Assembly: GCF_003634105.1 (NCBI RefSeq)
Contig: NZ_RBIQ01000007.1
Location: forward strand, 558,001-622,000
DNA from: Maribacter vaceletii
GTDB taxonomy: Bacteria; Bacteroidota; Bacteroidia; Flavobacteriales; Flavobacteriaceae
Reading direction: 5' to 3'
DNA: 64,000 nucleotides
How positions within the stretch are numbered: position 1 is the first letter of the stretch; the number at the start of each line of letters is the position of its first letter. Positions 23,569 through 40,909 of the stretch are shown piece after piece. Under the pieces are notes generated by a model. The model saw only the letters and a program-made list of their open reading frames with translations. It was not told the DNA's origin and searched no databases. The position numbers and the translations under genes are program-made.

Positions 23569-24726
23569 ATGAAAATCACCGATATAAAAACATATCCAAT
23601 AAATGTTGGAAGTGGAAGTCAATTAGTAATTAAGATAGAGACAGATAGTGGTATCTATGGTTGGGGAGCTTCCGGCCTTTCCGGAAGGGAACTTGCCGTA
23701 GTTGGCGCTATAAAGCATTACAAACCATTACTTATTGGGAGAAACCCAATGCAAATTGGTGCCATTTGGCAAGATTTATATAGAGGGCAGTATTTTGAAG
23801 GCGGAAGAGTTTTAACCGCCGCAATATCTGCAATAGACATAGCATTATATGATATAAAAGGGAAAACATTAGGGGTTCCTGTTTATGAGCTTTTAGGAGG
23901 TAAACAACGTAACTTTGTAGAATGTTTTGCTTCGGTACGTTTTTCTACGCTAGAAGAACTTATCAGACTTTCTAAAGGACTTGTAGCAGAAGGATGGAAT
24001 ATGCTTCGCTTAGCTCCTGCTGAATTTGAAGCACAAGAAAACCAAAGCCAATTTGAACCAAGAGAATCTATCTCAATAATTTCAGAATGGTTAATTGCTT
24101 TAAGAAAAGAAGTAGGAACAAAAATAACTATTGGTATAGATTACCACACAAGGTTAACACAAGCAGAAACATACACTTTTATACAAAGAATGCCAAAAGG
24201 TACTATAGATTTTATAGAAGAGCCTATACGTGATGAAAATCCAGAAGCATATGAAAATCTACGTAAAATGATAGATATTCCTTTTGCCATAGGAGAAGAG
24301 TTTTCTAGCAAATGGCAATTTATGCCTTTCATAGAAAAGAACATAACACAATACGCAAGAATAGACGTTTGTAATGTTGGTGGTATTACCGAAGCTAAAA
24401 AGGTTGCTGCTATGGCAGAAACACACTATATAGATTTAATGCCACATAATCCTTTAGGGCCAATATGCACCGCTGCAACTATACACTTAGCTGCATCATG
24501 CCCTAATTTTAGTTGGTTAGAAGAAGTAAATACTGGTGCACATGTTATAACAAATGACCCAAAATTTTACCCTGAGCAACATAAATTAGCTGGTCCAAGA
24601 TATCCGGTTACGGATACTCCTGGTTTAGGAATAGATTTTAACGAAGAATACGCTAAAACATTAAAATTTAAACCTGTAGAAATCCCTCGTCTTTATAGAA
24701 AAGACGGTTCACTTACTAATTGGTAA
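23569..24726 (+). CDS. Enolase-superfamily sugar-acid dehydratase, galactonate dehydratase (DgoD) type
   Basis: A 385-residue mandelate-racemase-family enzyme. Its catalytic set lines up with E. coli DgoD at a constant offset of 8: D191 and H193 in 'GIDYHTR', E217 in 'FIEEP', E243 in 'AIGEEF' and H293 in 'MPHNPLGP'. The C-terminal 'LYRKDGSLTNW' is also DgoD-like. It should abstract the C2 proton of D-galactonate or a close relative and eliminate water to give 2-keto-3-deoxygalactonate. The kinase and aldolase genes that follow would process this. It is cytoplasmic. It clearly differs from the cycloisomerase at 1960, so the locus has two entry enzymes to keto-deoxy acids. A role on an anhydro-acid or on another aldonate remains possible. 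Confidence 0.85.
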   Translation: MKITDIKTYPINVGSGSQLVIKIETDSGIYGWGASGLSGRELAVVGAIKHYKPLLIGRNPMQIGAIWQDLYRGQYFEGGRVLTAAISAIDIALYDIKGKTLGVPVYELLGGKQRNFVECFASVRFSTLEELIRLSKGLVAEGWNMLRLAPAEFEAQENQSQFEPRESISIISEWLIALRKEVGTKITIGIDYHTRLTQAETYTFIQRMPKGTIDFIEEPIRDENPEAYENLRKMIDIPFAIGEEFSSKWQFMPFIEKNITQYARIDVCNVGGITEAKKVAAMAETHYIDLMPHNPLGPICTAATIHLAASCPNFSWLEEVNTGAHVITNDPKFYPEQHKLAGPRYPVTDTPGLGIDFNEEYAKTLKFKPVEIPRLYRKDGSLTNW

Positions 24727-24731
24727 ACATT

Positions 24732-25739
24732 ATGAGTTTTACAACTTTTGGAGAAATAATGCTTAGACTAACTCCTAACGATTACGCTGCTAAAATAAAT
24801 AGCGCAAAAAATTTTGGAGTACACTTTGCAGGCTCAGAATCTAATGTAGCTAGCTCCTTAGCATATTTAGGCAATAAAACACAGTTTGTTACTAAACTTC
24901 CAAAAAATCAGCTAGGAGACGCTGCTGTAAACTCCTTAAGGTTCTATGGTATAAATACGAATAACATATTAAGAGGAGGAAATAGGGTTGGAACTTATTT
25001 TATAGAAATTGGTTCCTCTATAAGACCTTCTAGTGTAATTTATGATAGAGAAAATTCTGCTATTGCTAGTATAAAAAACAATGAATTTGATTGGGAAAAA
25101 ATACTAGAAGGACAAAAACATCTTTTTATATCTGGAATTACACCTGCATTATCTAAACATTGTGCTGATGAAGTAATTTCTTTAGCTAAAGTTGCAAGAA
25201 AATTAAATGTTAAGGTTAGCTTTGATATGAATTATAGAAGAACTCTTTGGAGTGATGTATCAAATGCTAGAAAAATATTTGATGCCATTTTAGAAAACAC
25301 AGATATTTTGTTTGGAAATATGGGCGTATTAAATGATGTTTATGGTATGACAGGTGAGGGCTCTAATAGTATAGATAAAACAGTTGATATTATTACTAAA
25401 GCTAAGAACGAATTTTGTTTAAATGAACTAGCTTTTACCGTACGTGATCATTACTCTGCTAATGAAAATGGACTATCTGGTATTTATATAGGTGCTAATG
25501 ACCCTATTGTCTCTGACACCTATAAAGTACAGATTTTAGACCGCTTTGGTACAGGAGATGCTTTTGCAGCAGGATGTTTACACGGATTAAATAAAAAGTG
25601 GGATAAAGAAAAGGTAATTGGTTTTGCAACTGCTGCCTTTGCTCTAAAACATACTATAAAAGGAGATCAACATACAAGTAACGAAGAGGAAATTAACTCC
25701 ATAAGAAATGGAAATATAACAGGACACGTATTACGATGA
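24732..25739 (+). CDS. kdgK: 2-Keto-3-deoxygluconate/galactonate kinase (PfkB family)
   Basis: Start chosen at the ATG at 24732, giving 335 residues. The upstream in-frame TTG at 24720 would overlap the dehydratase stop and adds only 'MVNI'. The protein begins with the PfkB-type 'TFGEIMLRLTP', has the substrate loop 'HFAGSESNVASSLAYLG', and the anion-hole/catalytic motif 'DRFGTGDAFAAG' with base D276. It should phosphorylate 2-keto-3-deoxygluconate or -galactonate at O6 with ATP. It follows the dehydratase by 5 bp and overlaps the aldolase start by 4 bp (ATGA), so translation is probably coupled. The stereochemistry of its substrate cannot be read from the sequence. Confidence 0.9.
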   Translation: MSFTTFGEIMLRLTPNDYAAKINSAKNFGVHFAGSESNVASSLAYLGNKTQFVTKLPKNQLGDAAVNSLRFYGINTNNILRGGNRVGTYFIEIGSSIRPSSVIYDRENSAIASIKNNEFDWEKILEGQKHLFISGITPALSKHCADEVISLAKVARKLNVKVSFDMNYRRTLWSDVSNARKIFDAILENTDILFGNMGVLNDVYGMTGEGSNSIDKTVDIITKAKNEFCLNELAFTVRDHYSANENGLSGIYIGANDPIVSDTYKVQILDRFGTGDAFAAGCLHGLNKKWDKEKVIGFATAAFALKHTIKGDQHTSNEEEINSIRNGNITGHVLR

Positions 25740-26368
25740 AAAGAGAAGAAATTTTAGAGATAATTAAAGACAGTAAGATAGTTGTTGTTATAAGAATGAA
25801 AGAACAACAACAAGTTGCAAAAGTTATAGATGCCTTGGTTAAAGGAGGAATTAAAACGTTAGAGGTAACTTCTAATACTCCTGGCTACTTAGAAGAAATT
25901 TCTAAAGCTAGAACAAAATACCCTAATACGCTTATTGGTGCCGGTACAGTCACTAATGCAAATAAAGCCAAGGACTCTGTAAATGCTGGCGCACAATTTT
26001 TAGTTACGCCAAATACAAACATAGAAACTATTAAAGTTGCTCATGAAAACAACATCCCGGTTTTAATGGGGGCTATTACCCCATCAGAAATTAGCATGGC
26101 TGCTGAAGCTGGTGCAGATATTGTTAAAATATTCCCTGCTGGTGCCATGGGAATAAAATACTTTAAAGCAGTAAAAGCACCTTTAAGTGACATTCCATTA
26201 TTTGCTGTAGGTGGTATTGATGAAAATAGTGCTGCTGATTGGATTACTGCTGGAGCTGAAGGACTTGGTATTGGTGGTGGATTAACGAAAGTTGTTAATT
26301 CCGAATCTGATTTTAATGACATTGTGACTTTATCAAAAAAATATTTATCTATTCTTAACGAAAAATAG
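25736..26368 (+). CDS. eda: KDPG / KDPGal aldolase
   Basis: A 210-residue class I aldolase of the usual size, with E43 in 'KTLEVTSNTPG', the Schiff-base lysine K131 in 'DIVKIFPAGAMG', and the phosphate-binding 'FAVGGIDENSA' and 'LGIGGGLT' loops. It cleaves 2-keto-3-deoxy-6-phosphogluconate (or -galactonate) to pyruvate and glyceraldehyde 3-phosphate. It overlaps the kinase stop codon and closes the operon permease - dehydratase - kinase - aldolase. A strong bidirectional terminator follows. It could also serve the uronate route of the second PUL, since unsaturated uronates end in KDG. Confidence 0.93.
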   Translation: MKREEILEIIKDSKIVVVIRMKEQQQVAKVIDALVKGGIKTLEVTSNTPGYLEEISKARTKYPNTLIGAGTVTNANKAKDSVNAGAQFLVTPNTNIETIKVAHENNIPVLMGAITPSEISMAAEAGADIVKIFPAGAMGIKYFKAVKAPLSDIPLFAVGGIDENSAADWITAGAEGLGIGGGLTKVVNSESDFNDIVTLSKKYLSILNEK

Positions 26369-28130: not shown

Positions 28131-29156
28131 TTATATAGAAATCTCTTTTCCTAATTTACTAGACTCATATATTTTGTCTTGCACTACTATATTTTTTAGG
28201 TACAAAGAAACATCCGTCTCAAAAGGTTTACCAGAACTAAGCTGGTCTATAAAATGTTTTTGGGTATTAAAAACACAGTCTCCTGCAAAATTTATTTTCT
28301 CAAATTTATAGCTGTGCTCTTTTTCTTTTTCTCCTAATAATTGGATGGTTATTCTCCCATCTTCATATAATCTAATACTACCTTTATTACCTTCAATTAG
28401 CACTTTTCCAAAAGTGAATCTAGGATTGTCTGATGTACTTTCGTTATACCTATTTGCATCTAAAAAACCTACAGCACCATTAATAAAATCAAAATTTACC
28501 CAAGCAAAATCTTCTCCTTTTATATTAGTATTTAAGGTTTTTAATTTTGCATAAACCTTTGTTATTTCTCCTCCTAAATAACGAAAAACATCTATAAAAT
28601 GGATACCTGTTTCATAAATTAACAGCTTTTCCATTTCTCTAAAATAGGGTTGTCTATTCATATATGCATCAGGTTGCCAACCATCTCCCATTCGCATACA
28701 AAGGTTAATAGTGTGCAACTTATTCCCAATACTATTTTGTACTAGTAATTTTTTGATTTCTCTATGCCACGGTTGAAAACGAAAATTCTCATGCACCATC
28801 ATTCTTACATTAGATTCTTCTATTATTTTAGCGAGCTGTATAGACTCTTTATATGTTGGAGCAAGAGGTTTTTGGCAAATAATATGAATACTATTAGATG
28901 CTGCAATTTTACATATCTCTAAATGTGTATTTGGCGGTGTTATAACGTCCACAAAATCTGGCTTTTCTTGCTTAAGCATTTCTTCAAAATTCTCATACGC
29001 TTTTGCAAAACCATAGGTATCACATATTGTTTGCGCTTTTTCTATAGAAATATCGCAAACTGCTACTATTTCTAAGTTTTCTAAACGCGCCCATGCCTCG
29101 TAATGAAATTGGCTAAAATACCCTGCGCCTATACAAACTCCTTTATAAATTTTCAT
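28131..29156 (-). CDS. Gfo/Idh/MocA-family NAD(P)-dependent oxidoreductase
   Basis: A 341-residue cytoplasmic enzyme. The N-terminal Rossmann fold has 'GVCIGAGYFSQFHYEAW' and an acidic 'VAVCDISIEKA' turn. The family's E-K-P motif appears as 'ICQKPLAP', with Gln replacing Glu but the catalytic Lys kept. The C-terminal half has the usual alpha/beta sheet with 'YETGIHFIDVFRYLGG', containing the conserved H and D of the family. Such enzymes oxidise or reduce a sugar, inositol or sugar-acid hydroxyl. It starts 2 bp after the permease gene and belongs to the acid-sugar operon, where it could oxidise the substrate before phosphorylation or make a 3-keto intermediate. The specific reaction is unknown. 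Confidence 0.85.
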   Translation of the reverse strand: MKIYKGVCIGAGYFSQFHYEAWARLENLEIVAVCDISIEKAQTICDTYGFAKAYENFEEMLKQEKPDFVDVITPPNTHLEICKIAASNSIHIICQKPLAPTYKESIQLAKIIEESNVRMMVHENFRFQPWHREIKKLLVQNSIGNKLHTINLCMRMGDGWQPDAYMNRQPYFREMEKLLIYETGIHFIDVFRYLGGEITKVYAKLKTLNTNIKGEDFAWVNFDFINGAVGFLDANRYNESTSDNPRFTFGKVLIEGNKGSIRLYEDGRITIQLLGEKEKEHSYKFEKINFAGDCVFNTQKHFIDQLSSGKPFETDVSLYLKNIVVQDKIYESSKLGKEISI

Positions 29157-29158
29157 TC

Positions 29159-30427
29159 TTAATATTCTGAAAAGTGTTTATGAGGTTTCATATTAAACCA
29201 TATCAAAACAGCTATAATATTTAATATTGCTCCTACAACAAAAAACAACGTTGTACTTCCTGTCCAAGATAATAAATATGGAAACAATAAAGCTGTTATA
29301 AAGGCTCCAATATTACCAGCCATATTCATTGTACCAGAAACTGTTCCCGCATGTTTTTTACCTATATCTACACAAAAGGCCCAAGACGGTGGCAATGTCA
29401 TATCTGCACCAAAAATTGCAATGCTTAAAAATACTATTGCTCCAACTGCAGAGCTCATGTATACACTACCAAGCAAACCTATTGCTGCTAAGGCAAATCC
29501 TAAAGAAGCCGGAAATATTCTAGATGCATCCCATTTTCCTTTTTTATATATTTTATCTATTAACCAACCAGAAAACCAATTGCCAAAGGCACCAAAAACT
29601 AAAGGAATTGCGGTATACAAACCTGCCTCCACAGTATCTAGTTGATATTCGCTTTTAATATGAGGAAACAACCAAGTAAGTGCAAAGAAAAAGGTAAAAT
29701 TACTACAGAAATACTGACCCATTGCAAGCCACATATTTTTTGATTTTAGCAAAGTTCCAAAGTGTATTTTTTTGGTGGTAGCATTTGTGTTTTTTTCTTG
29801 TCTTTGCGATATTATAAAATCTTTTTCTTCTTGACTAATACTCTTCAACTCTTCTGGTGTATCTCTGAAAAATATATACCAACAAATAGCCCATACTCCT
29901 CCTAACACTCCTAATAGTACAAAAGTGTTACGCCAACCAAAATCTGTTATTGCCCATGCTACTGCAGGCACTGCAAACGCAGCTCCTAAACGGGAGCCAG
30001 AAAAATTAATACCTGTAACTATTCCTCTTTCTTTTAAAGGTATCCAACTATAAATTGCTCTAGACATACCAGGAAAGGCACCAGCTTCTCCTGCTCCGAA
30101 TAAAAAACGAATTATTAAGAGAGAAATAAAATTCCAAGCTGCTCCTGTAATTGCCGTAAAAGAAGACCATAAAACAACTATAATAGTCAATATTTTTCTA
30201 GGTCCAAAACGATCTACCATTATCCCAGATGGAGTTTGAAAAAAAGCATATCCAAGAGAAAAAGCAGCTAAAACCCATCCCATTTGTTTATCACTTAAAC
30301 TAAGAGCCTCTGCTATTGGCTCTTTAGCTACACTAATACAAATACGGTCTACATATAATAATAAGGCTAAAAGAAAAGTGCCTACTATCATAAAATAACG
30401 CTTAGGGAAAAAGCTGTTTTTTTTCAT
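29159..30427 (-). CDS. MFS permease, anion:cation symporter (sugar acid) type
   Basis: A 422-residue protein with about 12 helices: 'LLYVDRICISVA' in helix 1, 'GIMVDRFGPRK' in loop 2-3 and 'FFRDTPEELKSIS' in the central loop. It is in the same superfamily as the two permeases near susCD but clearly more distant, so it probably takes a different acid. Its start codon overlaps the kinase stop by 4 bp (ATGA) and it ends 2 bp before the oxidoreductase start, so it is firmly part of this operon. The likely role is uptake of the C4 or related acid sugar that the kinase and dehydrogenase use. Confidence 0.88.
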   Translation of the reverse strand: MKKNSFFPKRYFMIVGTFLLALLLYVDRICISVAKEPIAEALSLSDKQMGWVLAAFSLGYAFFQTPSGIMVDRFGPRKILTIIVVLWSSFTAITGAAWNFISLLIIRFLFGAGEAGAFPGMSRAIYSWIPLKERGIVTGINFSGSRLGAAFAVPAVAWAITDFGWRNTFVLLGVLGGVWAICWYIFFRDTPEELKSISQEEKDFIISQRQEKNTNATTKKIHFGTLLKSKNMWLAMGQYFCSNFTFFFALTWLFPHIKSEYQLDTVEAGLYTAIPLVFGAFGNWFSGWLIDKIYKKGKWDASRIFPASLGFALAAIGLLGSVYMSSAVGAIVFLSIAIFGADMTLPPSWAFCVDIGKKHAGTVSGTMNMAGNIGAFITALLFPYLLSWTGSTTLFFVVGAILNIIAVLIWFNMKPHKHFSEY

Positions 30428-31809
30428 TTTAAAATTTTTAATAATTCATACAAAGCCTTTTCATCACCAACATTTCCTGGAAAAATAATATATGGCATTT
30501 TAGGAAATTTACTTTCCTTCCCTAATTGCCAAACAGGAACACCTTTTAATGCTTGCCCCATTACAAAGGCTCTTTTAACTCTCAGAGCTTTTGTTGCCAC
30601 ATCACTAGAGGTAATACCTCCTTTAGCGATAATATATTTGGGAGTACATGACAATTCTTTAACTATACGAATAAGGCCATTAGATACTAAGTTTACAATC
30701 TCAAGACTTTTAACTTGAGAAACTCCTTTAATAATAGTTCTGCTAGTAAAAAGAACAACGTCTTCTCCTTTTTCTAAATTACTATTTACTCTAGAAATTA
30801 ATTTTTCTATTTCCTTTTTAAAAACAGCAGTATTTAATACGTTTGTAACGTCTAATTCTAAGAAAATAGCTTTTGTGTTTTCTTTTAAATAATTTAATTG
30901 CAATGTTGTTTTTGGAACATAAGACCCTATTACTAATAAAGAACCTCCTTTAGAGTCTTCCCCTAATATTTCTTTTTTTGTTAAACAGTTTTTAGGTGTT
31001 ATCCCTGTAATAGCATTTACAAAAGATGCAGCTGTTCTATATATTATAGTCTCTTTACTTTGCAAACCTATTAAAGCTAATTTCTCTAAATCTGCATAAG
31101 ATGTTGCATTAGCTATTATATGCGATATACTCGGTTTTTTGAGAATGCTTTGTAAACTTTCCTCTGAATCTTCTCTTAATTCCTTAATTGATAAACTTCC
31201 AATGTTTTTAGGATCTACTATAGCACTCGTTTTTTCTAATATCCAATCTATTAGGTTAGATGATAAGTAGCCAAAAGTATTATCCTTTGCAAAGGGTGTT
31301 TTTGCTGCAGGAATAAATTCTTGACCTTCTTTTACATAATGGATATTCTTATAGGTATACCTACCTCCTTCAAAAAAAGCAGGAGCTAGTACATGTTTAG
31401 CTTTTGGTATTTGTAATCCCTCTGCAAGAGCATTTACTTCATTAGGATAATGACCTCTTAAAGTAGAATCTCCTCTACTAATTAAAACTAGCTCTTTTTT
31501 ATGTTTTTTAGATAACTTATTAAGTCTAGAACCAATTAATGCTGCTAATACATTCGCATTTTGTATTTGTAAACTTCTAGAATTAGTTAAAATAAAAAAA
31601 ACAGAACTACTAAGTATTTCTTTTTCAAGAACCTCATCTGTCCATTCTGTAATTACAGGTACATTATACACTGTTTGTGTTCCTGTAGGGTCATCATCTA
31701 AAACTATAATAGTTTTTGGGTTTTTATTTAGCTCTTTACGTATAGCATGTACAGAACCTTGTAACAGTTTCCCTTCTTCAATAGATTTTAATATTCCTTC
31801 TTTTAGCAT
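30424..31809 (-). CDS. DUF1537-family four-carbon acid-sugar kinase
   Basis: A 461-residue protein of the DUF1537 family. The N-terminal substrate-binding domain has 'VLDDDPTGTQTVYNVPV' and 'ISRGDSTLRGHYPNE' (about residues 37-120). The C-terminal nucleotide-binding domain has 'KYIIAKGGITSSDVATKALR' and the closing 'IIFPGNVGDEKALYELLK'. Characterised members phosphorylate D-threonate, L-threonate, D-erythronate or 3-oxo-tetronate at O4 with ATP. It is flanked by the cyclase-family gene (3 bp) and the permease (4-bp overlap). The usual partner PdxA2 is absent; a tartrate/D-malate-type dehydrogenase takes its place in the operon. The 'DDPTGT' variant, rather than DDFTGA, belongs to a less-studied branch, so the true substrate is open. 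Confidence 0.88.
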   Translation of the reverse strand: MLKEGILKSIEEGKLLQGSVHAIRKELNKNPKTIIVLDDDPTGTQTVYNVPVITEWTDEVLEKEILSSSVFFILTNSRSLQIQNANVLAALIGSRLNKLSKKHKKELVLISRGDSTLRGHYPNEVNALAEGLQIPKAKHVLAPAFFEGGRYTYKNIHYVKEGQEFIPAAKTPFAKDNTFGYLSSNLIDWILEKTSAIVDPKNIGSLSIKELREDSEESLQSILKKPSISHIIANATSYADLEKLALIGLQSKETIIYRTAASFVNAITGITPKNCLTKKEILGEDSKGGSLLVIGSYVPKTTLQLNYLKENTKAIFLELDVTNVLNTAVFKKEIEKLISRVNSNLEKGEDVVLFTSRTIIKGVSQVKSLEIVNLVSNGLIRIVKELSCTPKYIIAKGGITSSDVATKALRVKRAFVMGQALKGVPVWQLGKESKFPKMPYIIFPGNVGDEKALYELLKILK

Positions 31810-31812
31810 TAT

Positions 31813-32451
31813 TTATTTCTCTATTGCTATTACTCTTGCTGGCGCACCATCGCCGTTTTCTACCTTTATAGGAAGTGCAACCAGTGTAAATTCTGAAGAG
31901 GGAAGAGATTCTAAATTGGTAAGCCCTTCAATTATTATAATATCATTCTTCATTAAAATATTATGAATTTCCGTTACTTCCTCAATGTTGTTTACATCTG
32001 CAACAGATGGTGGCTCTACACCTATAATGTTCACCTTTTTTTCTCCAAGCCATAAAGCCAATTCTTTACTTATTCTTGGTAATGCATTACGATACTCTTC
32101 TGACCCTATTTTTTTACTCCAACCTGTTTGCAATAAAATACTATCTCCAGGACTAATTTTATCAGCAACAGCTTGCAGATGTCTTATAGTAATTAATTCT
32201 TTAGGTTTTATTTTTGTTACATCTACTTTCCATGCATTAGAAACAAACCTATTAGCAGGTATTACATCTATAGTTTGGGGGGTTACTCCAAAATGAATGG
32301 GCGCATCCATGTGGGTGCCACTATGAGAGTATAAATTTAAAGTTGTTGCATTCCAACCATCTTTAGCGAGAGAACGAGCAGGTTCTATAGTAACCCCGCT
32401 CATAGTATTATTTATGGGCAGGGTTAAATCTATAATTTTTTTGTTGCTCAT
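31813..32451 (-). CDS. Cyclase-family (kynurenine formamidase-like) metal hydrolase
   Basis: Start taken at the ATG at 32451 (212 residues). The longer frame begins with TTG at 32463 inside the preceding gene. The protein has the family signature 'YSHSGTHMDAPIHFG' (HxGTHxDxPxH), which binds the metal, and a C-terminal 'LPIKVENGDGAPARVIAIEK' close to the family's 'PLK..G..GSPAR' ending. Members hydrolyse formamides, lactones or related bonds. Between an acid-sugar kinase and a hydroxyacid dehydrogenase it could open a lactone to the free aldonate. It is 4 bp after the dehydrogenase and 3 bp before the kinase. There are no tryptophan-catabolism genes here to support a kynurenine role. Confidence 0.85.
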   Translation of the reverse strand: MSNKKIIDLTLPINNTMSGVTIEPARSLAKDGWNATTLNLYSHSGTHMDAPIHFGVTPQTIDVIPANRFVSNAWKVDVTKIKPKELITIRHLQAVADKISPGDSILLQTGWSKKIGSEEYRNALPRISKELALWLGEKKVNIIGVEPPSVADVNNIEEVTEIHNILMKNDIIIIEGLTNLESLPSSEFTLVALPIKVENGDGAPARVIAIEK

Positions 32452-32455
32452 TTTC

Positions 32456-33535
32456 TTATGCAACTACTAGTTCTGAAGTCTCTATATAATTTACCACACT
32501 ATTTGCTACATCAGAGGTAGATGCATTTCCTTTAAGGTCTTTCGTTAAATTTCCTTTAGAAGTAGTATGCTCTATACCTTTCATAATATCTTTTGCAGCT
32601 TCTGTTTCTCCTAAATGATCTAACATTATAGCAGCCGACCAAATTTGACCTATTGGATTTGCTATGTTTTGCCCAGCAATATCTGGAGCAGAACCATGTA
32701 TAGGTTCAAACATAGAAGGAAAATCCTTTTCCGGATTAATGTTTCCACTTCCACCAAGGCCAAGACTACCCATAATAGCGCCTCCTAAATCTGACAATAT
32801 ATCTCCAAAAAGATTCGTAGTTAAAATAACATCAAAAACTTCTGGGCGAAGTACAAAACTTGCAGATGCATTATCTATATACATCGTATTGTACTCTACA
32901 TCTGGATACTGTTCTGCAACCTCTGCAATAACTCTATCCCAATAAGCAAGACTATGTATTAAGGTGTTAGATTTTGTTACGTTCGTTACCTTACTTCTTC
33001 TTTTTCTTGCTAATTTAAAAGAGTAGTGTGCAATACGCTCTATTCCAAATCTAGTAAATACACTAGTATCTGTAGCAACTCCACCAGCTTCTTCTGCATG
33101 CATTATTTGTCCATTTTGTACAAACTCTCCCTCATTATTCTCACGAACAACTACAAAATCTATATCTTTTTGCGTTTTATCTCTTAACGGACTATCTATT
33201 CCTGGAAATAATTTTACAGGTCTGTAATTTACATACTGCTTAAGTTTTCCTCTTACTTTAAAAGTATAATCTCTAGCTGGCAAAGTATCGTCTACTTCTG
33301 GCAAACCTACAGCTCCAAAATAAATTGCATCATACGTTTTCATTTGCTCTATACCATCTTCTGGCATAAATTCTCCATGTTTTAAATAATGACCTGCTCC
33401 CCAAGACAATTCATTTAAATCTAAATTAAAACCATGCTTTTTTGCAACAGCTTTTAATACAGAAACACCTGCTGGCACAATTTCTGCTCCAATTCCGTCT
33501 CCGTTTACAACGGCTATTTTATATACTTTTCCCAT
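32456..33535 (-). CDS. Isocitrate/isopropylmalate-family dehydrogenase, D-malate/tartrate dehydrogenase type
   Basis: Start chosen at the ATG at 33535 (359 residues). The frame extends to a TTG at 33559, but that codon is part of a repressor operator. The protein has 'VVNGDGIGAE', 'NYRPVKLFPGI', 'VVVRENNEGEF', K188 in 'VTKSN', and metal ligands D221 ('YIDNA'), D245 and D249 ('GDILSD'), plus 'EPIHGSAPDIAG' for NAD. It follows D-malate/tartrate dehydrogenase (DmlA/TtuC) better than IDH or LeuB. The residue after 'EGE' is F138 where this superfamily normally has the catalytic Tyr. It probably oxidises, and perhaps decarboxylates, a C4 hydroxyacid or its phosphate. It is the first gene of the operon. 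Confidence 0.87.
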   Translation of the reverse strand: MGKVYKIAVVNGDGIGAEIVPAGVSVLKAVAKKHGFNLDLNELSWGAGHYLKHGEFMPEDGIEQMKTYDAIYFGAVGLPEVDDTLPARDYTFKVRGKLKQYVNYRPVKLFPGIDSPLRDKTQKDIDFVVVRENNEGEFVQNGQIMHAEEAGGVATDTSVFTRFGIERIAHYSFKLARKRRSKVTNVTKSNTLIHSLAYWDRVIAEVAEQYPDVEYNTMYIDNASASFVLRPEVFDVILTTNLFGDILSDLGGAIMGSLGLGGSGNINPEKDFPSMFEPIHGSAPDIAGQNIANPIGQIWSAAIMLDHLGETEAAKDIMKGIEHTTSKGNLTKDLKGNASTSDVANSVVNYIETSELVVA

Positions 33536-33551: not shown

Positions 33552-33569
33552 TTGCGCAATTTTGCACAA
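33552..33569 (-). promoter_or_regulatory. LacI-type operator pair in front of the acid-sugar operon
   Basis: TTGCGCAA (33552-33559, a perfect palindrome) and TTGCACAA (33562-33569) are separated by 2 bp. They lie between the likely -7 box at 33611-33618 and the ATG at 33535. The same two words recur in the same order in front of the lacI-type gene. Confidence 0.65.
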
Positions 33570-33657: not shown

Positions 33658-33677
33658 TTGCGCAATAAATTGCACAA
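33658..33677 (+). promoter_or_regulatory. LacI-type operator pair in front of the regulator gene (autoregulation)
   Basis: TTGCGCAA (33658-33665) and TTGCACAA (33670-33677) have a 4-bp spacer and lie 9 bp before the regulator ATG. This is the second copy of the pair found at 33552-33569, supporting control of both divergent promoters by the same repressor. Confidence 0.65.
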
Positions 33678-33686: not shown

Positions 33687-34733
33687 ATGACAAAAAAAGA
33701 AAGAGAGAAAGAAACCCCTACTTTAAAAGATATTGCAGAAACGCTAAACATTTCTATATCTACTGCCTCTAGAGCATTAAAAAGCAATCCTAGAATTAGT
33801 AGAAAAACACAAGAAATGGTAAAAAATACCGCAAAAAGAATGGGGTATTTATCTATAGATATGCTTAGTGAAGAAAAAAAGAAAGCATCTAATCTTATAG
33901 GAGTAATAGTACCTAAAATTAGTTATCACTTATATGCCATGGCAATAAGTGGGATAGAGCATATTGCAGAACAAAACGGTATGCACATTATAGTATGCCA
34001 ATCTAATGAATCTTATGAAAGGGAAAAAAGCTTAGTAAAAGAGCTTATACAAGCTGGGGTAAATGGCATAATAGCTTCTTTGGCAAGTGAAACCAAAGAA
34101 TTTTCACATTTTCTAGAGTTAAAAAAATTAGGTGTTCCTTTAGTTTTTTTTAATAGAGAATGTAATGATGTAATTACACATAAGGTAACTATAGACAATA
34201 AAAGAGCCGCATATGAAGCTGTAATGCATTTAATTTCTGTTGGATGTAAAAAAATAGCATATATAGGAGGTCCAGAGGTACTACAAATAAACAAAGAAAG
34301 AGCTCAGGGTTTTAAAGATGCTTTAGCGGATAATAAAATAGATATTGATGATAATCATATAATGTATAGCAGGTTTGATAGAGAAAGTACATTAACTGCG
34401 GCAAGAACTTTATTATATTCTCCTGATTACCCAGACGGAATTTTAACCTTTAGTGATCAAATAGCAATTAGTGTAATGTTAGCTGCAAAGGAAAGAGGAA
34501 TTGCTATACCTGAAAAATTATCTCTAATTGGTTTTAACAACGAACCTATAGATGAACTTTTAGAACCCTCATTAACCAGTATAGATCAGCCAGGTTATAG
34601 AATGGGAGAAGAATCTGCGCAACTACTATTAAAACAGCTCAACAATTTCAATAAAGTTTATGAAAAAAGAATTCTTAAATCTTTTTTAGTTGTGCGAAAC
34701 TCCACAAATAAAAATAGAAACTCAAAACCATAA
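33687..34733 (+). CDS. LacI/GalR-family transcriptional repressor
   Basis: A 348-residue regulator with the N-terminal LacI helix-turn-helix 'TLKDIAETLNISISTASRALKSNPRISRKT' (about residues 10-40). The hinge-helix region and a periplasmic-binding-protein-like effector domain follow ('IGVIVPKISYHLYAMAISGIE' to 'TSIDQPGYRMGEESAQLLL'). It is divergent from the dehydrogenase-cyclase-kinase-permease-oxidoreductase operon, and both promoters carry the same TTGCGCAA/TTGCACAA pair. It probably represses the operon and itself until an acid sugar or its derivative binds. The DUF5060 gene starts 28 bp after it in the same direction and may be cotranscribed. Confidence 0.93.
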   Translation: MTKKEREKETPTLKDIAETLNISISTASRALKSNPRISRKTQEMVKNTAKRMGYLSIDMLSEEKKKASNLIGVIVPKISYHLYAMAISGIEHIAEQNGMHIIVCQSNESYEREKSLVKELIQAGVNGIIASLASETKEFSHFLELKKLGVPLVFFNRECNDVITHKVTIDNKRAAYEAVMHLISVGCKKIAYIGGPEVLQINKERAQGFKDALADNKIDIDDNHIMYSRFDRESTLTAARTLLYSPDYPDGILTFSDQIAISVMLAAKERGIAIPEKLSLIGFNNEPIDELLEPSLTSIDQPGYRMGEESAQLLLKQLNNFNKVYEKRILKSFLVVRNSTNKNRNSKP

Positions 34734-34761: not shown

Positions 34762-37677
34762 ATGAAATATTTAAAACATAAAATAAAAATAACACTAGGA
34801 ACTACACTAGCTGTTTTTCTATTTGGTGCTACATTAAAAGCTCAGAACCAAAAAGTTCTAGAAGAAAAAAATGGTCTTTTAGTTGTTGAGGCAGAAGATT
34901 TTCAAAATCAAACAAAAACAGAGATACGCAAATGGCATATTATTTCTGATAAAAATAATCTAGAAGCCAAAACTGCTAGTCACAACAGTTACATTAAAAT
35001 ATTACCAGATACTAGAACCAACCACAAAGATAAACTTATTCCTAAAGTAAATTTTAGTAATGAAGCTGGGAAAATGGCAATTGTGCACTACAAGGTAAAA
35101 GTAAACACTCCAGGCCGTTATTACATATGGGCAAGCGCTTATAGCTCAAATTCTGAAGACAACGGGGTACATGTTGGTATCAATGGAGAATGGCCAGAAA
35201 GCGGACAAAGAATGCAATGGTGCGATGGTAAAAATTCATGGACTTTGGGTAGTAGCCAAAGAACCTTAGAAGTTCATTGCGGGGTACCTGGTTTAATTTA
35301 TTTGGATATTGATAAAGCAGGCGAATATGATATTCAATTTAGTATGCGAGAAGATGGCTTTGCCATGGACCAGTGGATAATGACAACTGATAAACATTTT
35401 TCTTTAGACAAACTTAAAGAAGAAGAAAATACCATTTCTTTAATGGATGCTGTTAAAGAAAAATATCCTGACTATGCAACTATAAAGGCAACCGAATTTG
35501 ATATTCAAAATAATACTTTTTATGTAGACAAAAATTGGCTAGCAATAAACCCAAATAAAAATGAAACCGCCAAAGCTACTTATAAATATACTGGAGCTTC
35601 TGGTTTATTTGACATCGTGGTACATGGCGTTGGCGAAAATGACGGAAGGTCTTCTTTTACACTTACTGTAAATAAGTACCCACAAGGAACATTTAGACCA
35701 GAATTAAGTACAGACCCTTTTGAAGAAGGACCAGACTATGGTAAAACGTTTTTAGATGTACAATTAAACACAAATGACATTATTACTATTGATGGAAAAA
35801 TAGGAAGTAGAGATCAAAAAGAATTTAGTAGAGGCCGATGGAGCGGTATAAATATTACCCCAATAGGAAAAGGAGACAAACTACTTAAAGGTCTAAAAGG
35901 AGGCAATGAAAATACAAGTGTTGTTGTAGATGGTGAATTAAAAAAATGGCATAAAGTAACCCTTACTTTTGATGGGCCACTTACCTCTGAAACTAAAAAG
36001 AATAATCCTTTTATGAATTTCCGTTTTAACACTACGTTTACACACACTAAAACTGGTAAAAAATATCTTATCCCAGGTTATTTTGCTGCAGATGGCTATG
36101 CCGGAGAATCTTCTGCTACTGAAGGGAATAAATGGCGTGTGCATTTTGCTCCAGATGAAATAGGAGAATGGACCTATGAAGTAGATTTTAGAAAAGGTAA
36201 TTGGGTGGCTGTAAGCGATAAAATAAATTCTGGATTAAGTGGTGGTTACATGGATGGTGCTACTGGTAAATTTACCATAGAAAATACTAATAAAAAAGGA
36301 AAAGATTTTAGAGCAAAAGGAAGACTCCAATATGTTGGGGAACGTTATTTAAAATTTGCAGAAACAGGAGAGTACTTCCTAAAACAAGGACCAGATGCTC
36401 CTGAGAATTTTTTATCTTATATAGATTTTGATGGTACGTTTCATAATGACGGACACAAAGATAATTTAGTAAAGACATGGGAAGCACATGAAAAAGATTG
36501 GAAAAAAGGAGATTTAACTTGGAAAAATGGTAAAGGAAAAGCTATCGTAGGCGCATTAAATTATTTAGCTTCTAAAGATTTAAATTCTGTTTCTTTTTTA
36601 ACAAATAATATTGCTGGTGATGATCAAAATGTATTCCCTTATATAGATTATGACACCTATGACCGTATTGATGTTTCTAAAATGGACCAGTGGGAATCTC
36701 TTTTTGAGTATGCACAAAAACTAGGTCTTTTTCTTCATTTTAAAACCTTAGAAGTAGAAAATCAAGGACTATTAGATAACGGTGGTGTTGGCGCAAACAG
36801 CAAGCTATATTATAGGGAATTAATGGCCAGATTTGGTCACCATTTAGCCTTAAACTGGAATTTATGTGAAGAAAATGGAGAATGGATTAAAGACCACCCA
36901 ACACCTCCACAAAGCACAGAAGAAAGGTTAGCAATGACCCATTACTTTAAAAACCATGACCCATACCATCATCATTTAGTAATACATAATGGTGTAAAGT
37001 ATGATGATTTATTAGGTCCTGATAGTGGATTAACTGGCCCATCTATACAAACTCACAAATCTGATTTTAGCACCATTCATAAAGAGGTCTTGCATTTATT
37101 AAAAATATCAAAAGAAGCTGGTTTTCAATGGGCAGCTGCAGTAGATGAACCAGGAGATGCGCAACATTCTTTATTACCAGACGATGAAAATCCTGGACAT
37201 GATACAGCTAGAAGAAATGCACTTTGGGGTACTTTCATGGCCGGTGGCTGGGGTAACGAATGGTACTTTGGTTACAAGCATGCTAATTCCGATCTTACTT
37301 GTCAAGATTACCGTTCTAGAGATTTGTTTTGGGACCAAACCGTACACGCTATTAATTTCTTTAAAGACAACAATGTTTCCTTCTGGGAAATGGAAAACAA
37401 TAATAGCTTAGTAGGTAATCCAGAAAACAAGAATACAGTGTATTGCCTTGCAAAAGAAAATGATACTTATGTTGTTTATTTAAATTCTAAAACAACCTCA
37501 ACTTTAGATTTATCAAATGCTACAGGAGAATATAAAGTTCTTTGGTATAATCCTAAACAAGGTGGTTCATTAAAGAAGTCTAAAGTAAAAAAAGTTAAAG
37601 GAGGAACCGTAGTAGAATTAGGAAAATCCCCAGACAAAAAACAATTAGACTGGGTTATTCTTGTTACAAAAGAATAA
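34762..37677 (+). CDS. DUF5060-type glycoside hydrolase candidate, multidomain, secreted
   Basis: A 971-residue protein with a signal peptide (about 1-27, 'ATLKAQ'). An N-terminal malectin/GH115-C-like carbohydrate-binding module follows ('GLLVVEAEDFQNQ', about 35-215), then a second module. Next is a DUF5060 Ig-like domain (about 395-505, 'HKVTLTFDGP...RVHFAPDEIGEWTYEV') and a TIM-barrel-like catalytic region (about 530-880). A small beta domain close to the collagen-binding-like C-terminal type completes it. Candidate acid/base and nucleophile are E703 or E704 in 'NWNLCEENGEW' and E796 in 'AAVDEPGD', in the order expected for clan GH-A. It probably cleaves a polysaccharide or oligosaccharide outside the cytoplasm. 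No characterised GH family can be named with confidence. Confidence 0.7.
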   Translation: MKYLKHKIKITLGTTLAVFLFGATLKAQNQKVLEEKNGLLVVEAEDFQNQTKTEIRKWHIISDKNNLEAKTASHNSYIKILPDTRTNHKDKLIPKVNFSNEAGKMAIVHYKVKVNTPGRYYIWASAYSSNSEDNGVHVGINGEWPESGQRMQWCDGKNSWTLGSSQRTLEVHCGVPGLIYLDIDKAGEYDIQFSMREDGFAMDQWIMTTDKHFSLDKLKEEENTISLMDAVKEKYPDYATIKATEFDIQNNTFYVDKNWLAINPNKNETAKATYKYTGASGLFDIVVHGVGENDGRSSFTLTVNKYPQGTFRPELSTDPFEEGPDYGKTFLDVQLNTNDIITIDGKIGSRDQKEFSRGRWSGINITPIGKGDKLLKGLKGGNENTSVVVDGELKKWHKVTLTFDGPLTSETKKNNPFMNFRFNTTFTHTKTGKKYLIPGYFAADGYAGESSATEGNKWRVHFAPDEIGEWTYEVDFRKGNWVAVSDKINSGLSGGYMDGATGKFTIENTNKKGKDFRAKGRLQYVGERYLKFAETGEYFLKQGPDAPENFLSYIDFDGTFHNDGHKDNLVKTWEAHEKDWKKGDLTWKNGKGKAIVGALNYLASKDLNSVSFLTNNIAGDDQNVFPYIDYDTYDRIDVSKMDQWESLFEYAQKLGLFLHFKTLEVENQGLLDNGGVGANSKLYYRELMARFGHHLALNWNLCEENGEWIKDHPTPPQSTEERLAMTHYFKNHDPYHHHLVIHNGVKYDDLLGPDSGLTGPSIQTHKSDFSTIHKEVLHLLKISKEAGFQWAAAVDEPGDAQHSLLPDDENPGHDTARRNALWGTFMAGGWGNEWYFGYKHANSDLTCQDYRSRDLFWDQTVHAINFFKDNNVSFWEMENNNSLVGNPENKNTVYCLAKENDTYVVYLNSKTTSTLDLSNATGEYKVLWYNPKQGGSLKKSKVKKVKGGTVVELGKSPDKKQLDWVILVTKE

Positions 37678-37782: not shown

Positions 37783-39357
37783 TTAATAAATTATAGTATC
37801 TGCATATAGATTTTCTTGATACCAAGGGTCATTTGTATTTTTTAACATTACACCCAAGTCTTTTAGCAATACTTTAGATATTTCTGGCAGTTCTTTTATT
37901 GGAATTTTTTTTAATTGGTAAGGATCGTTTAAATTATCATACAAAAAAGATTGCGCCAACTTAGTTCCTTTCTTTTTATCCCATGGTAATTTATCTTCTT
38001 CTAACCAAAGAGTATATTGCTTTGTTAAAACCCCTCTAGAATTCCCTAACATAAGTAGTACAGACTCTGGTTCTTTCACATTATAAGTATTCGGGTTTAG
38101 TAAATTATTGGCAAAATTTATTCCTTCTACCTTCTCCTCAATATTAGCAGACATACCAGCCAACCCCATAAGCGTAGGCAAAACATCTGGAACACTAAAT
38201 AATGTTTCATTTACCCCTTTCTTTAAACCCTTTGGCCAATGTACAATAAAAGGTATTGCCATAGCCTCTGTTAAAAATTGATTTTTACCTGTTCGCCCAT
38301 GACTACCTAACATTTCGCCATGATCAGAACTATAAATAACTATCGTATTGTCTAATTCTCCCATTTTTCTTAACTCTTCTAATACTCTACCTACATGCGT
38401 ATCTACACTAGTAACATTAGCATAATAATGGCGTGCATAATCTGCCACTTTTAAATCTGCATTTTCGCGAACTACTAAAGAAGTATCAATTACAGGGTAT
38501 TTATCTTCTCCATAATGAGATTTAAGAGCTTCCATATCTGTGTTATCATCTCCCCATGGGTTATGTGGTGGGTTAATAGACCAAATCATACAAAAAGGTT
38601 TCTTCTCCTCTCTCTGACTCCTTTTGTTCTTTAAATAATCTAGAATTTTATCGGCCTCATTTTTGGTAGAAAATATTTTAGGTAAATGCAATTCACCATC
38701 TTTCTTTCCATTTATAGTAGCTGGATCATTAGAATATATATGTGGGTCATAATGTGAATCTTTCATTGACTGATAAAAATATTCTATACTATGTCTTGAT
38801 GGCCCTGGCGGAACATAGGTATCATAGTTATTTACATGATGCCCTCCTGGAGCTTCAGTTGTACCAATATAATTTCCTTTTTCATCAAATAAAGCATCAT
38901 TTTTTAACCAATGACATTTACCAAAATAAGAAGTATTGTAACCAGCTTCATAAAAAACATCTGTAATTGTTTTTGCATCATCTTTTAAACTTTCTTCTCT
39001 ACCTACCTTGCAATTATTCCAAATTCCGTTTTGCTCAGGGTACATTCCTGTTAAAAGCATTCCTCTAGCAGGACTACAAAGAGGGTAATTACTTATGGCA
39101 TTTGTAAAAACAATACCATTAGTTGCAAGTTTATCTATGTTAGGAGTTATTACTGGGTCTGGCTTACCTACTACATAGCTAGCATATTCTTTTTTAGACC
39201 AAAAACCAGCACTATATCTTCGTAATTGGTCTGGGTATATAATTAAAACATTAGGTTTATTTACTACCTTTTTTTTAATAGATGATTCCTTTTTAGTTTT
39301 ATCCTCACAATTTGTGAAAGCAAGTAGAATTAAAAACAGTGTTAGTACATTTTTCAT
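37783..39357 (-). CDS. Sulfatase, S1 formylglycine type, lipoprotein
   Basis: A 524-residue lipoprotein (lipobox FTNC, Cys 17) with the maturation motif C94-S-P-A-R98 in 'NYPLCSPARGMLLTGMYP', 'YFGKCHWLK' and the 'IYSSDHGEMLGSHGR' metal site. The first metal motif is 'IYPDQLRR' (D43, Q44), as in a sub-branch of S1 sulfatases that has DQ rather than DD. It starts 1 bp after the beta-helix protein's stop codon and is the last gene of the GH88 - beta-helix - sulfatase operon. It should remove sulfate from oligosaccharides made by those enzymes in the periplasm. S1 subfamily and target carbon were not determined. Confidence 0.92.
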   Translation of the reverse strand: MKNVLTLFLILLAFTNCEDKTKKESSIKKKVVNKPNVLIIYPDQLRRYSAGFWSKKEYASYVVGKPDPVITPNIDKLATNGIVFTNAISNYPLCSPARGMLLTGMYPEQNGIWNNCKVGREESLKDDAKTITDVFYEAGYNTSYFGKCHWLKNDALFDEKGNYIGTTEAPGGHHVNNYDTYVPPGPSRHSIEYFYQSMKDSHYDPHIYSNDPATINGKKDGELHLPKIFSTKNEADKILDYLKNKRSQREEKKPFCMIWSINPPHNPWGDDNTDMEALKSHYGEDKYPVIDTSLVVRENADLKVADYARHYYANVTSVDTHVGRVLEELRKMGELDNTIVIYSSDHGEMLGSHGRTGKNQFLTEAMAIPFIVHWPKGLKKGVNETLFSVPDVLPTLMGLAGMSANIEEKVEGINFANNLLNPNTYNVKEPESVLLMLGNSRGVLTKQYTLWLEEDKLPWDKKKGTKLAQSFLYDNLNDPYQLKKIPIKELPEISKVLLKDLGVMLKNTNDPWYQENLYADTIIY

Positions 39358-39358
39358 C

Positions 39359-40909
39359 TTATTTTTTTTCTTTTAATACCCATTCTGGAAGGTGCCCAAG
39401 GCGTAATTTTAATTGTTCTTCAAACAAAGATTCTGGTTTTACAGGCGCGCCTAAACTCTCTAATATTTGCACCTCATCTTCTTTAAAAGTGGTTCCTGAA
39501 CCATGAAAACCAACTATTATTGGAGGTACTATTCTCCAATACCAACTGTCTATTGCTACAAATCTAAAATCTTCTTCTGCTTCATCAATCTCTTTGTAAT
39601 TCCACAATACTAAATACCTCCCATGATTTGGTAAATTAAAACGTGCACCTCCTCCTCTACCCGCAAAAAAACCTCCTTCAACTTTATCAAATAAAGTACA
39701 ACGCGGTTGCGAAGCATGGCTCTCGAAACAAGTATGGGCTGGGAATTTACATCTCCATATAACATTTGCAGAGGAACTCCCACCTGCTACTCCTACGGCA
39801 TGGTGCATACCTGCCATGTCATTTACTTTTGCAATTAAAATTCCAGTTGAGCCGCCTGCAGCATGTACAGAACTATGTCCTATTTTCCCTGAAATAGTAA
39901 TATTTAAAGCTGTACTGGCAGCAGCTCCAGAAAAGCTTAAAGGAGCATTAACATTTTTAAATGTACAATCTTTAGCCCAGGAATCTACGACATTACTAAT
40001 ACTTAAAATTGTCCAACCTCCATCGTCTTGCGCAGAACGATGATGCACAAAATCTTTAGTCCAATTACCCTCAAAAGTAATCTCCTCAAAACCCACATGA
40101 TTTAGATGTGGAAAACTCTTAATCTTCCATTTATGCTTTGCAGTAACATCATAATGTATTGGCTCCACAAAAGTTATTGTATTACCAATAACACTCTCCA
40201 CTTTATGCCGCTCATTTACTTGAACACCATCGTTTAAAAGTGCTGTCCATTCTGGGTCTGGAATTAATGGTTGCACATCGTAAGCAACTAAATCTTTACT
40301 ATTATTTTCTACCTGTAATATTACCCAATCCCCTTTTTTTATGGCAGAACTATTGTCCACTTCTATACTATGCGTTTCTCTAGTTACATTCCCTGTAACA
40401 TTTGCTAATACTTTAGATTTCTCATCCACTGAAACTTTTATAGCAGCGGGTACTGTCCATAATTTTTCTGGATCCGCTGGTGACAAATCTTTATCAAAAA
40501 ACAAAATAGTATTTGCCTGGCTTTCTCCTCTAAAGACAATATGAGAAGATTGTACTTTTATACTACTTTCATCATCATTACCGGTATTTATCATATACCT
40601 TCCATTAGGAAAATAAATAATGCCTTTTCCTTTTTTCGACGCTGCTTTTATTGCTTTATTTAATGCGTCTTTATCTGATAAATTGTCATTTGGGATTGCT
40701 CCAAAATCCACAACATTAAAAACGGGATAATTAACTCTAGGGATTGGTTGTTCCGAATATTTATAACCTGCAAAAGAGAAATTAGGAAGTATAGCCTCCT
40801 GCCCTTTTTTTGAGGCATTTACATAATTATCCCAAACAGATTCTTTTTGGGCTTTACATCCGAACACAGCAAATAAAGCGACTAAAACTACAAAATTATT
40901 AATTCTCAT
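39359..40909 (-). CDS. Right-handed beta-helix lipoprotein (DUF4955-like), putative uronate-polymer-acting enzyme
   Basis: Start chosen at the ATG at 40909, 1 bp after the GH88 stop; it gives a lipobox (VFGC, Cys 18) and 516 residues. The frame to 40936 would overlap GH88. The N-terminus has a DUF4955-like 'LPNFSFAGYKYSEQPIP' motif. It is followed by the pectate-lyase-3 start 'FNVVDFGAIPNDNLSDKDALNKAI', beta-helix rungs, and a C-terminal 'VVGFHGSGTTF...PESLFEEQLKLRLG'. It is clearly paralogous to the protein at 54721. Next to GH88, which needs unsaturated uronates, a lyase or dehydratase role is plausible. No characterised PL family can be named. Confidence 0.75.
   Translation of the reverse strand: MRINNFVVLVALFAVFGCKAQKESVWDNYVNASKKGQEAILPNFSFAGYKYSEQPIPRVNYPVFNVVDFGAIPNDNLSDKDALNKAIKAASKKGKGIIYFPNGRYMINTGNDDESSIKVQSSHIVFRGESQANTILFFDKDLSPADPEKLWTVPAAIKVSVDEKSKVLANVTGNVTRETHSIEVDNSSAIKKGDWVILQVENNSKDLVAYDVQPLIPDPEWTALLNDGVQVNERHKVESVIGNTITFVEPIHYDVTAKHKWKIKSFPHLNHVGFEEITFEGNWTKDFVHHRSAQDDGGWTILSISNVVDSWAKDCTFKNVNAPLSFSGAAASTALNITISGKIGHSSVHAAGGSTGILIAKVNDMAGMHHAVGVAGGSSSANVIWRCKFPAHTCFESHASQPRCTLFDKVEGGFFAGRGGGARFNLPNHGRYLVLWNYKEIDEAEEDFRFVAIDSWYWRIVPPIIVGFHGSGTTFKEDEVQILESLGAPVKPESLFEEQLKLRLGHLPEWVLKEKK

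Follow-up and report, generated by a model that had tools for sequence, protein, structure and literature searches.

DUF1537 kinases are paired with dehydrogenases in the DtnK/PdxA2 pathway for D-threonate and in the OtnK/OtnC and DenD/LtnD tetronate pathways, the latter two reportedly described by Zhang et al. in 2016. In the oxidative D-apiose pathway (ApsD, ApnL, ApnO, and OiaK), a DUF1537 kinase is accompanied by a Gfo/Idh dehydrogenase. Here, a five-gene run is described in a 64,000-nucleotide stretch of the Maribacter vaceletii genome (contig NZ_RBIQ01000007.1, positions 558,001 to 622,000; this whole stretch is called the window, and positions are counted from its first letter). The run encodes a dehydrogenase, a cyclase-family hydrolase, a DUF1537 kinase, a major facilitator superfamily (MFS) permease, and a Gfo/Idh dehydrogenase. 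The best reading, held at a probability of about 0.42, is that it forms a dedicated cassette in which the first dehydrogenase would act before the kinase on a tetronate-type acid, with loss of CO2 to give a triose phosphate.

The five genes lie on the minus strand and are separated by gaps of 4, 3, −4, and 2 bp. The first encodes an Iso_dh-family dehydrogenase (PF00180; 32456..33535), assigned by Pfam and TIGR02089 as a tartrate/D-malate-dehydrogenase-like NAD enzyme of 359 amino acids with phenylalanine (Phe138) at the catalytic Tyr site; its ATG is at 33535 and the open frame extends to a TTG at 33559. It is followed by a cyclase-family metal hydrolase (PF04199; 31813..32451), which is proposed to be an aldonolactonase based on Pfam, its nearest solved structures, and its HSGTHMDAPIHF motif, and by a DUF1537 kinase with SBD_N and NBD_C domains (30424..31809; Pfam) from a clade named DDDPTG in this analysis. 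The MFS permease (MFS_1; 29159..30427; Pfam, NCBIfam) is nearest to sugar-acid (anion:cation symporter) types, and the Gfo/Idh dehydrogenase (28131..29156; Pfam, nearest solved structure) is a proposed sugar 1-dehydrogenase that would yield a lactone. These coordinates bear out an earlier interpretation of the same DNA, made from the letters alone and referred to as the sequence-only reading, which had described this gene run, its first three gaps, and its continuation to a Gfo/Idh gene; the span it gave, 30424-33535, contains the first three genes only, with the permease and Gfo/Idh genes outside it, consistent with its text.

Conservation of the run was assessed in a sample of 299 Flavobacteriaceae genomes that includes M. 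vaceletii. A DUF1537 gene is present in 30 of these genomes, and 23 of the 30 carry the kinase type of the window; the remaining seven have only other kinds, which are located in RuBisCO-like or PdxA clusters. The same five-gene order is found at 22/22 other Flavobacteriaceae loci with the window-type kinase, although one locus (L047) has a fragmented dehydrogenase gene and a short cyclase. In a reverse search, the dehydrogenase was detected in 22 genomes, all within the 23 that have the kinase type, and none of the 299 has the dehydrogenase without this kinase type. The sole kinase-only genome is 88% complete and has its dehydrogenase in two pieces (G051). This co-occurrence corresponds to a Fisher p of 2e-32, a value that, like the other Fisher tests reported here, counts related genomes as independent and is indicative only. 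Based on this conservation, the five genes are nearly certain to be one dedicated catabolic cassette. The sequence-only reading had suggested a genome search for co-occurrence of these families and had staked itself on the gene order being conserved in some related genome; the search finds the dehydrogenase–kinase pairing conserved (22 genomes within 23 of 299), and the order is kept in the 22 Flavobacteriaceae loci and, with some rearrangement, in other phyla.

Outside this family, the cassette was sought by a GTDB scan with the kinase, from which the best-scoring 80 of 568 loci, not a random sample, were taken; partners were counted in these loci, which are often short, by tblastn at an E value of 1e-12. 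An Iso_dh gene is present in 31 of the 80 loci, and these 31 also contain the cyclase (31/31) and Gfo/Idh (26/31) genes. PdxA2, OtnC, RuBisCO-like, and D-erythronate-dehydrogenase-like genes were each found in 0/31, and PdxA2 was likewise found in none of the 49 kinase loci that lack Iso_dh. Hosts of the cassette include Maribacter, Zobellia, Cellulophaga, Kriegella, Aquimarina, and other Bacteroidota, and it is further found in KSB1, Balneolaceae, Sedimentisphaerales, Pirellulaceae, and Verrucomicrobiales, with a partly altered gene order in the Pirellulaceae, one Verrucomicrobial, and the Balneolaceae loci. Open reading frames in this wider locus set were called crudely, worst in high-GC loci, and three pairs of loci (L031/L065, L034/L066, L037/L068) are on contigs of identical length and are treated as the same genomes, which reduces 51 loci to 48 distinct ones and 53 enzymes to 50. 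Three Planctomycete loci (L100, L115, L126) have the Gfo/Idh, cyclase, and kinase genes without an Iso_dh gene in the fetched stretch, and each of their genomes encodes a Phe-type Iso_dh at another place; since the L100 locus stops at a contig edge, its Iso_dh may belong to the same operon. Among 625 matched plasmid records, no match to the dehydrogenase reached 60% identity, and no phage record matched the Gfo/Idh protein at an E value of 1e-20.

The dehydrogenase resembles the TtuC/DmlA enzymes in fold family, length, metal Asp, Lys, and substrate Arg residues. It scores 472.2 bits against TIGR02089 (tartrate dehydrogenase), 1.8 bits over the cut-off of 470.4, and its nearest solved structure is the tartrate dehydrogenase 3flk. 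Residues R95, R105, R131, K188, D221, D245, and D249 are invariant in 17 aligned sequences; they correspond to the Arg triad, the Lys, and the metal-binding Asp residues of isopropylmalate and isocitrate dehydrogenases (IPMDH and IDH). In contrast to these shared features, alignment places Phe138 (codon TTT, 33122..33124, minus strand) at the position of the catalytic Tyr, which is retained in 3flk, 1w0d, and 1vlc. Phe occupies this site in 52 of 53 cassette enzymes (49 of 50 once duplicates are removed), the exception being that of locus L130. Tyr is present in Escherichia coli DmlA and LeuB, in 4/4 proteins annotated as tartrate dehydrogenase, in five second copies from the same Planctomycete and Verrucomicrobial genomes, and in relatives from Paracoccus and Aminobacter. 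That the window encodes an ordinary tartrate or D-malate dehydrogenase placed in a sugar operon by chance, as the TIGR02089 score and the nearest structure might suggest, is therefore very improbable: the enzyme never occurs without the cassette kinase in the 299 genomes, and its Tyr is replaced by Phe in all but one cassette enzyme. An AlphaFold model of the dehydrogenase has a mean pLDDT of 54.4, and nothing is inferred from it. On a plasmid of Aminobacter sp. MSH1 (L178:6989-10028), a Tyr-type Iso_dh gene is followed by a cyclase-family gene and a short-chain dehydrogenase/reductase (SDR) gene, with no DUF1537 gene on the record; the dehydrogenase–cyclase pairing is thus not confined to the kinase pathway.

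A tree of 66 rows, 52 of which have Phe, was built after 10 duplicate or near-identical rows had been omitted; it contains long branches. At least two changes are required at the Tyr/Phe site, and a topology that unites every Phe row in one clade is rejected (p-AU 1e-62). In the window clade, 42 rows have Phe, and they form a supported group beside Tyr-type enzymes. The Planctomycete and Verrucomicrobial cassettes L086, L095, and L134 have dehydrogenases of a distinct clade, 37-38% identical to the window enzyme, and this second Phe clade also includes enzymes from Sulfitobacter, Marinovum, Rhizobium gallicum, and Rhodococcus. That the Tyr was lost twice independently, in enzymes whose gene neighbours are alike in kind, suggests a shared functional demand; the Phe-type enzymes of Marinovum and Rhodococcus, which have no DUF1537 gene on their plasmid records, speak against this. 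In IDH and IPMDH, the catalytic Tyr protonates the enol after decarboxylation. With this residue replaced by Phe, a decarboxylating role for the enzyme, which the sequence-only reading had entertained, is doubtful.

The neighbours of related genes bear on which enzyme acts first. In Sulfitobacter, the Phe-type Iso_dh gene abuts a Gfo/Idh gene (39% identical to that of the window) and is divergent from a cluster that encodes a TRAP transporter, a metallo-beta-lactamase-fold lactonase, OtnK (498.4 bits; cut-off 350), and OtnC (299.7 bits; cut-off 250). In R. gallicum, the Phe-type Iso_dh gene is in a run with otnK (567.6 bits, above the cut-off) and otnC (by annotation). Among the 49 of the best 80 of 568 kinase loci that lack Iso_dh, a D-erythronate-dehydrogenase gene adjoins the window-clade kinase gene, in divergent orientation, in four (L093, L094, L124, L125); the L124 protein, tested by profile, scores 447.6 bits against a cut-off of 325, and the L094 locus includes a GntP-type permease, by profile. 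Another window-clade kinase is placed after a GarR-type reductase. D-erythronate dehydrogenase uses the free acid and precedes the kinase in its pathway. By analogy with these OtnK/OtnC and D-erythronate-dehydrogenase associations, tetronates are indicated and it is more likely that the cassette dehydrogenase acts before the kinase, as D-erythronate and L-threonate dehydrogenases do, rather than after it, as PdxA2 does.

The opposite order was that of the sequence-only reading, according to which the dehydrogenase takes the place of PdxA2: a C4 acid would first be phosphorylated by the kinase, and the dehydrogenase would then, in the manner of PdxA2, convert this 4-phospho acid to dihydroxyacetone phosphate by oxidation and decarboxylation. 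Part of that proposal holds: the dehydrogenase–kinase pairing is real, and PdxA2 is absent from the 31 Iso_dh loci (of the best 80 of 568 kinase loci), as expected of a replacement. This order would also make a separate decarboxylase gene unneeded, in a genome that has no OtnC-type (Aldolase_II) gene and no RuBisCO-like gene. It is disfavoured by the Phe-type enzymes located near an oxo-acid kinase and decarboxylase in Sulfitobacter and R. gallicum, and by an active site that retains Arg residues for the substrate carboxylate like those of tartrate and isopropylmalate dehydrogenases and has lost the Tyr used in decarboxylating relatives. Action after the kinase is thus the second-best order of steps, and an unlikely one. 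The substrate class that the sequence-only reading favoured, a C4 or related acid, is still the best guess. The DtnK/PdxA2 system also differs from the cassette in its kinase, to which that of the window is 20% identical. Clusters of the DtnK/PdxA2 type do appear to be present within Flavobacteriaceae: at L059, L061, L062, and L063 (e.g., L059:5134-10890), a PdxA-family gene directly precedes a short DUF1537 kinase gene (by Pfam at L059), together with dihydrodipicolinate-synthase-family, sodium:solute symporter, and iron alcohol dehydrogenase genes.

The remaining proteins of the cassette are consistent with acid-sugar chemistry. The window kinase matches SBD_N (152.3 bits) and NBD_C (123.3 bits), and its DDDPTG motif is invariant in 18 aligned sequences. 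It shares the dehydrogenase-plus-kinase logic of the OtnK/OtnC and DenD/LtnD pathways, which have a different dehydrogenase family; it is 18-20% identical to OtnK, from which it forms a separate clade, the OtnK profile NF043035 is not among its matches at an E value of 1e-3, and its score against the D-threonate kinase DtnK (NF047819; 72.4 bits) is under the cut-off of 450. In five Desulfobacterota loci (L078, L080, L084, L090, L096), DDDPTG-clade kinases are accompanied by a ketopantoate-hydroxymethyltransferase-family gene (PF02548 by Pfam at L090). The nearest solved structures to the cyclase are kynurenine formamidases and metal-dependent hydrolases, and its score against arylformamidase/kynurenine formamidase TIGR03035 is 77.1 bits, under the cut-off of 223.05. 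The metal-binding motif of PF04199, HxGTHxDxPxH, is matched by HSGTHMDAPIHF, and its H, GTHMD, P, and HF elements are invariant in 23 aligned sequences. The best NCBIfam match of the permease is the D-galactonate transporter subfamily TIGR00893 (275.7 bits, below the cut-off of 395). The nearest solved structure to the Gfo/Idh protein is 5uhw (E value 3.4e-41; the next is 3.1e-18).

The permease type also fits a hexuronate route, as does the GH88-type gene in the window. In such a route, the Gfo/Idh and cyclase enzymes would make an aldaric acid from a uronic acid, the dehydrogenase would convert it by oxidative decarboxylation to a 4-oxo-pentonate, the kinase would form the 5-phosphate, and a class II aldolase would release dihydroxyacetone phosphate and glyoxylate. 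A class II fructose-bisphosphate-type aldolase gene is indeed near window-clade kinase genes in 12 of the best 80 of 568 loci, and in Deinococcus too, but in just one of the 31 Iso_dh loci; Phe138 is contrary to a decarboxylating role, and the closest relatives of the Gfo/Idh protein are in an oiaX (apiose) cluster. The hexuronate route is accordingly improbable. At L130 (Anaerolineaceae, Chloroflexi), genes for a kinase, an SDR-like protein, a cyclase, a Tyr-type Iso_dh, and a class II fructose-bisphosphate-type aldolase form a single run, possibly a Tyr-type, decarboxylating version of the pathway that ends in an aldolase.

A possible source of the sugar is encoded beyond the divergent regulator gene, where a protein with DUF5060 and Collagen_bind_2 domains (34762..37677, plus strand) is glycosidase-like by Pfam and structure model. 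Its N-terminus looks secreted. Its model (pLDDT 77.6), in which residues before ~448 are barely tested, has a clan GH-A-type barrel that resembles 4n0r (Z 29.5 over 459 residues), ManDH5 (Z of ~28), and the GH140 structure 5msy (Z 25.5). DUF5060 is found in 23/23 cassette genomes versus 48/276 others (p 2e-16) and is within two genes of the cassette at 19/48 distinct loci. Based on this model and these counts, the window protein may supply the sugar.

Apiose was raised as the cassette substrate by the likeness of the Gfo/Idh and DUF5060 genes to the Rhizobium oiaX cluster, which contains oiaX, a DUF1537 kinase gene, and a gene for a PGDH_C protein. The window Gfo/Idh protein is 32% identical to that of this cluster, a DUF5060 gene lies ~7 kb from the cluster with other transporter genes between, and the window DUF5060 model resembles GH140 apiosidases among others. 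By elimination, and given the enzyme list for the oxidative D-apiose pathway in PMC11747546, the Rhizobium Gfo/Idh protein is probably a D-apiose dehydrogenase, a branched-tetrose enzyme. The oxidative D-apiose pathway and the cassette have in common a Gfo/Idh dehydrogenase, a lactone step (proposed here), and a DUF1537 kinase, and both have DUF5060 genes in their surroundings. In contrast, the Rhizobium cluster has a 614-amino-acid protein in place of the cyclase, the PGDH_C protein in place of Iso_dh, a RuBisCO-like protein that is absent from the cassette, and an OiaK-like kinase 15% identical to that of the window.

The distribution of apiosidases also argues against apiose. PF13204 matches over the cut-off occur in 6/23 cassette genomes versus 38/276 others (p 0.10, no significant enrichment). 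At an E value below 1e-50, a threshold chosen after the list had been seen, they occur in 2/23 cassette genomes versus 26/276 others, yet in 7/7 genomes with a RuBisCO-like/DUF1537 cluster versus 21/292 others (p 3e-8). None of 18 cassette DUF5060 proteins tested matches PF13204. The apiosidases thus follow the RuBisCO-like cluster, so apiose appears to be handled by another system, and its candidacy was marked down; a further D-apiose pathway, in which the dehydrogenase would do the work of the apionate oxidoisomerase, is quite improbable. The sugar served by the cassette is probably another one, perhaps tetrose-like. In the seven Flavobacteriaceae genomes concerned (L052-L058; e.g., L052:7165-11716), the cluster encodes a RuBisCO-like protein, a DUF1537 kinase, an Asp/Glu-racemase-family protein, and a membrane protein (by Pfam at L052); given the apiosidase-family matches in all seven, it looks like an apiose route of this family. 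One genome (G227) has both the cassette and the RuBisCO-like/DUF1537 cluster.

In the preferred pathway, with the dehydrogenase ahead of the kinase, the DUF5060 glycosidase would free the sugar, and the MFS permease would import the sugar or its acid. The Gfo/Idh enzyme would oxidise carbon 1 of the furanose form of an aldotetrose-like sugar to a lactone, as is thought for the Gfo/Idh enzymes of apiose clusters, and the cyclase-family hydrolase would open this lactone to a tetronic acid, perhaps a branched one. The Phe-type dehydrogenase would then turn this acid, still unphosphorylated, into an oxo-acid, omitting the decarboxylation and protonation that depend on the Tyr in its relatives, and the oxo-acid would be phosphorylated by the DUF1537 kinase. 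Finally, the beta-oxo-acid phosphate would lose CO2, spontaneously or by a further enzyme, to give dihydroxyacetone phosphate or a close relative. The genome lacks OtnC-type and RuBisCO-like genes and has its single PdxA gene more than 500 kb away, so a decarboxylase of one of these known kinds is not at hand. A 3-oxo-tetronate 4-phosphate can lose CO2 spontaneously, so no further enzyme need be missing.

Several observations weigh against this pathway. The retained Arg residues of the malate-like core fit a diacid better than a tetronate, and the Phe-type enzymes of Marinovum and Rhodococcus are on plasmid records that, searched alone, contain no DUF1537 gene. The L130 locus is cassette-like and keeps the Tyr, with an SDR in place of Gfo/Idh. 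The kinase shares no more than 15-20% identity with the named DUF1537 kinases included in the comparison (OtnK, OiaK-like, and PdxA2-linked), and the parts of the literature consulted document no lactonase in the cyclase family. DUF5060 is no specific marker of the cassette, since it is also present in 6/7 genomes with the RuBisCO-like/DUF1537 cluster (p 9e-4) and in the 48/276 non-cassette genomes. Lastly, free tetroses are not known to be part of algal polysaccharides.

Regulation of the cassette appears to differ between lineages. A LacI-type regulator gene (33687..34733, plus strand; Pfam) is divergent and faces the operon. The palindrome TTGCGCAA, a putative LacI operator that is conserved ahead of the cassette at loci with a linked LacI gene, has only two copies in the 64 kb, at 33552..33559 and 33658..33665, both in the gap between the LacI-type and dehydrogenase genes. 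At least two copies arise in 12/100 shuffles, so that their placement, not their number, is informative. In the 160 bases that precede the dehydrogenase gene, TTGCGCAA occurs at 15 of 16 loci that have a nearby LacI gene (the window included; two pairs of these loci are on the same contigs), at none of 17 loci with a GntR gene, and at one of 19 loci without either; two more of the latter, on one contig, carry ATGCGCAA. Judging from this LacI-linked, not GntR-linked, pattern, one lineage probably controls the operon with a dedicated repressor, and another lineage with a different regulator.

The operon sits in a polysaccharide-utilisation region. The window genes that were scanned include four PF00884 sulfatases (26448, 37783, 53089, 57248), two SusD genes, and a GH29-type fucosidase. 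The sulfatase-rich polysaccharide utilisation locus invoked by the sequence-only reading is therefore present here, but it is not a constant setting: sulfatase-like genes are near the cassette at 11 of 48 distinct loci, and near none of 11 other DUF1537 loci of Flavobacteriaceae. A sulfated sugar source is possible and is not general. A block of sulfatase, DUF4955 beta-helix protein, and GH88-like genes is shared between the window (37783-42113) and L136 (1237-5560) at 59-71% identity, and at L136 these genes adjoin the cassette with one GntR gene between. In addition, an enolase-superfamily dehydratase, a PfkB-type sugar-acid kinase, and a KDPG-type aldolase are encoded in a single run at 23569-26368, a second acid-sugar route in the region.

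The cassette is thus a real, conserved, and undescribed-looking variant of the DUF1537-linked acid-sugar pathways, with an unusual active-site change that apparently evolved twice. A literature search of titles, abstract starts, and term counts, which did not extend to Zhang 2016 or Carter 2018, found no paper on the pairing of Iso_dh with a DUF1537 kinase. Current annotation obscures it: the cassette dehydrogenase passes the model that names it a tartrate dehydrogenase, kinases of the clade are annotated as four-carbon acid sugar kinases, and such names mask a gene set that is kept across marine Bacteroidota and is common to Planctomycetes and Verrucomicrobia. A bolder and more tentative proposal is that the cassette represents a further DUF1537-linked acid-sugar pathway, apart from the PdxA2, OtnC, and RuBisCO-like routes, in which a beta-decarboxylating dehydrogenase was twice made non-decarboxylating (or rearranging) by the same Tyr-to-Phe change, for a new marine algal sugar freed by DUF5060 glycosidases. 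If the pathway reading holds, it would add a route and an enzyme function to acid-sugar catabolism, and the pathway could be traced in genomes by one residue, the Phe that stands in for the Tyr. It would also tie a so far unassigned group of glycosidases, with DUF5060 and Collagen_bind_2 domains, to a monosaccharide that could be identified with four soluble proteins.

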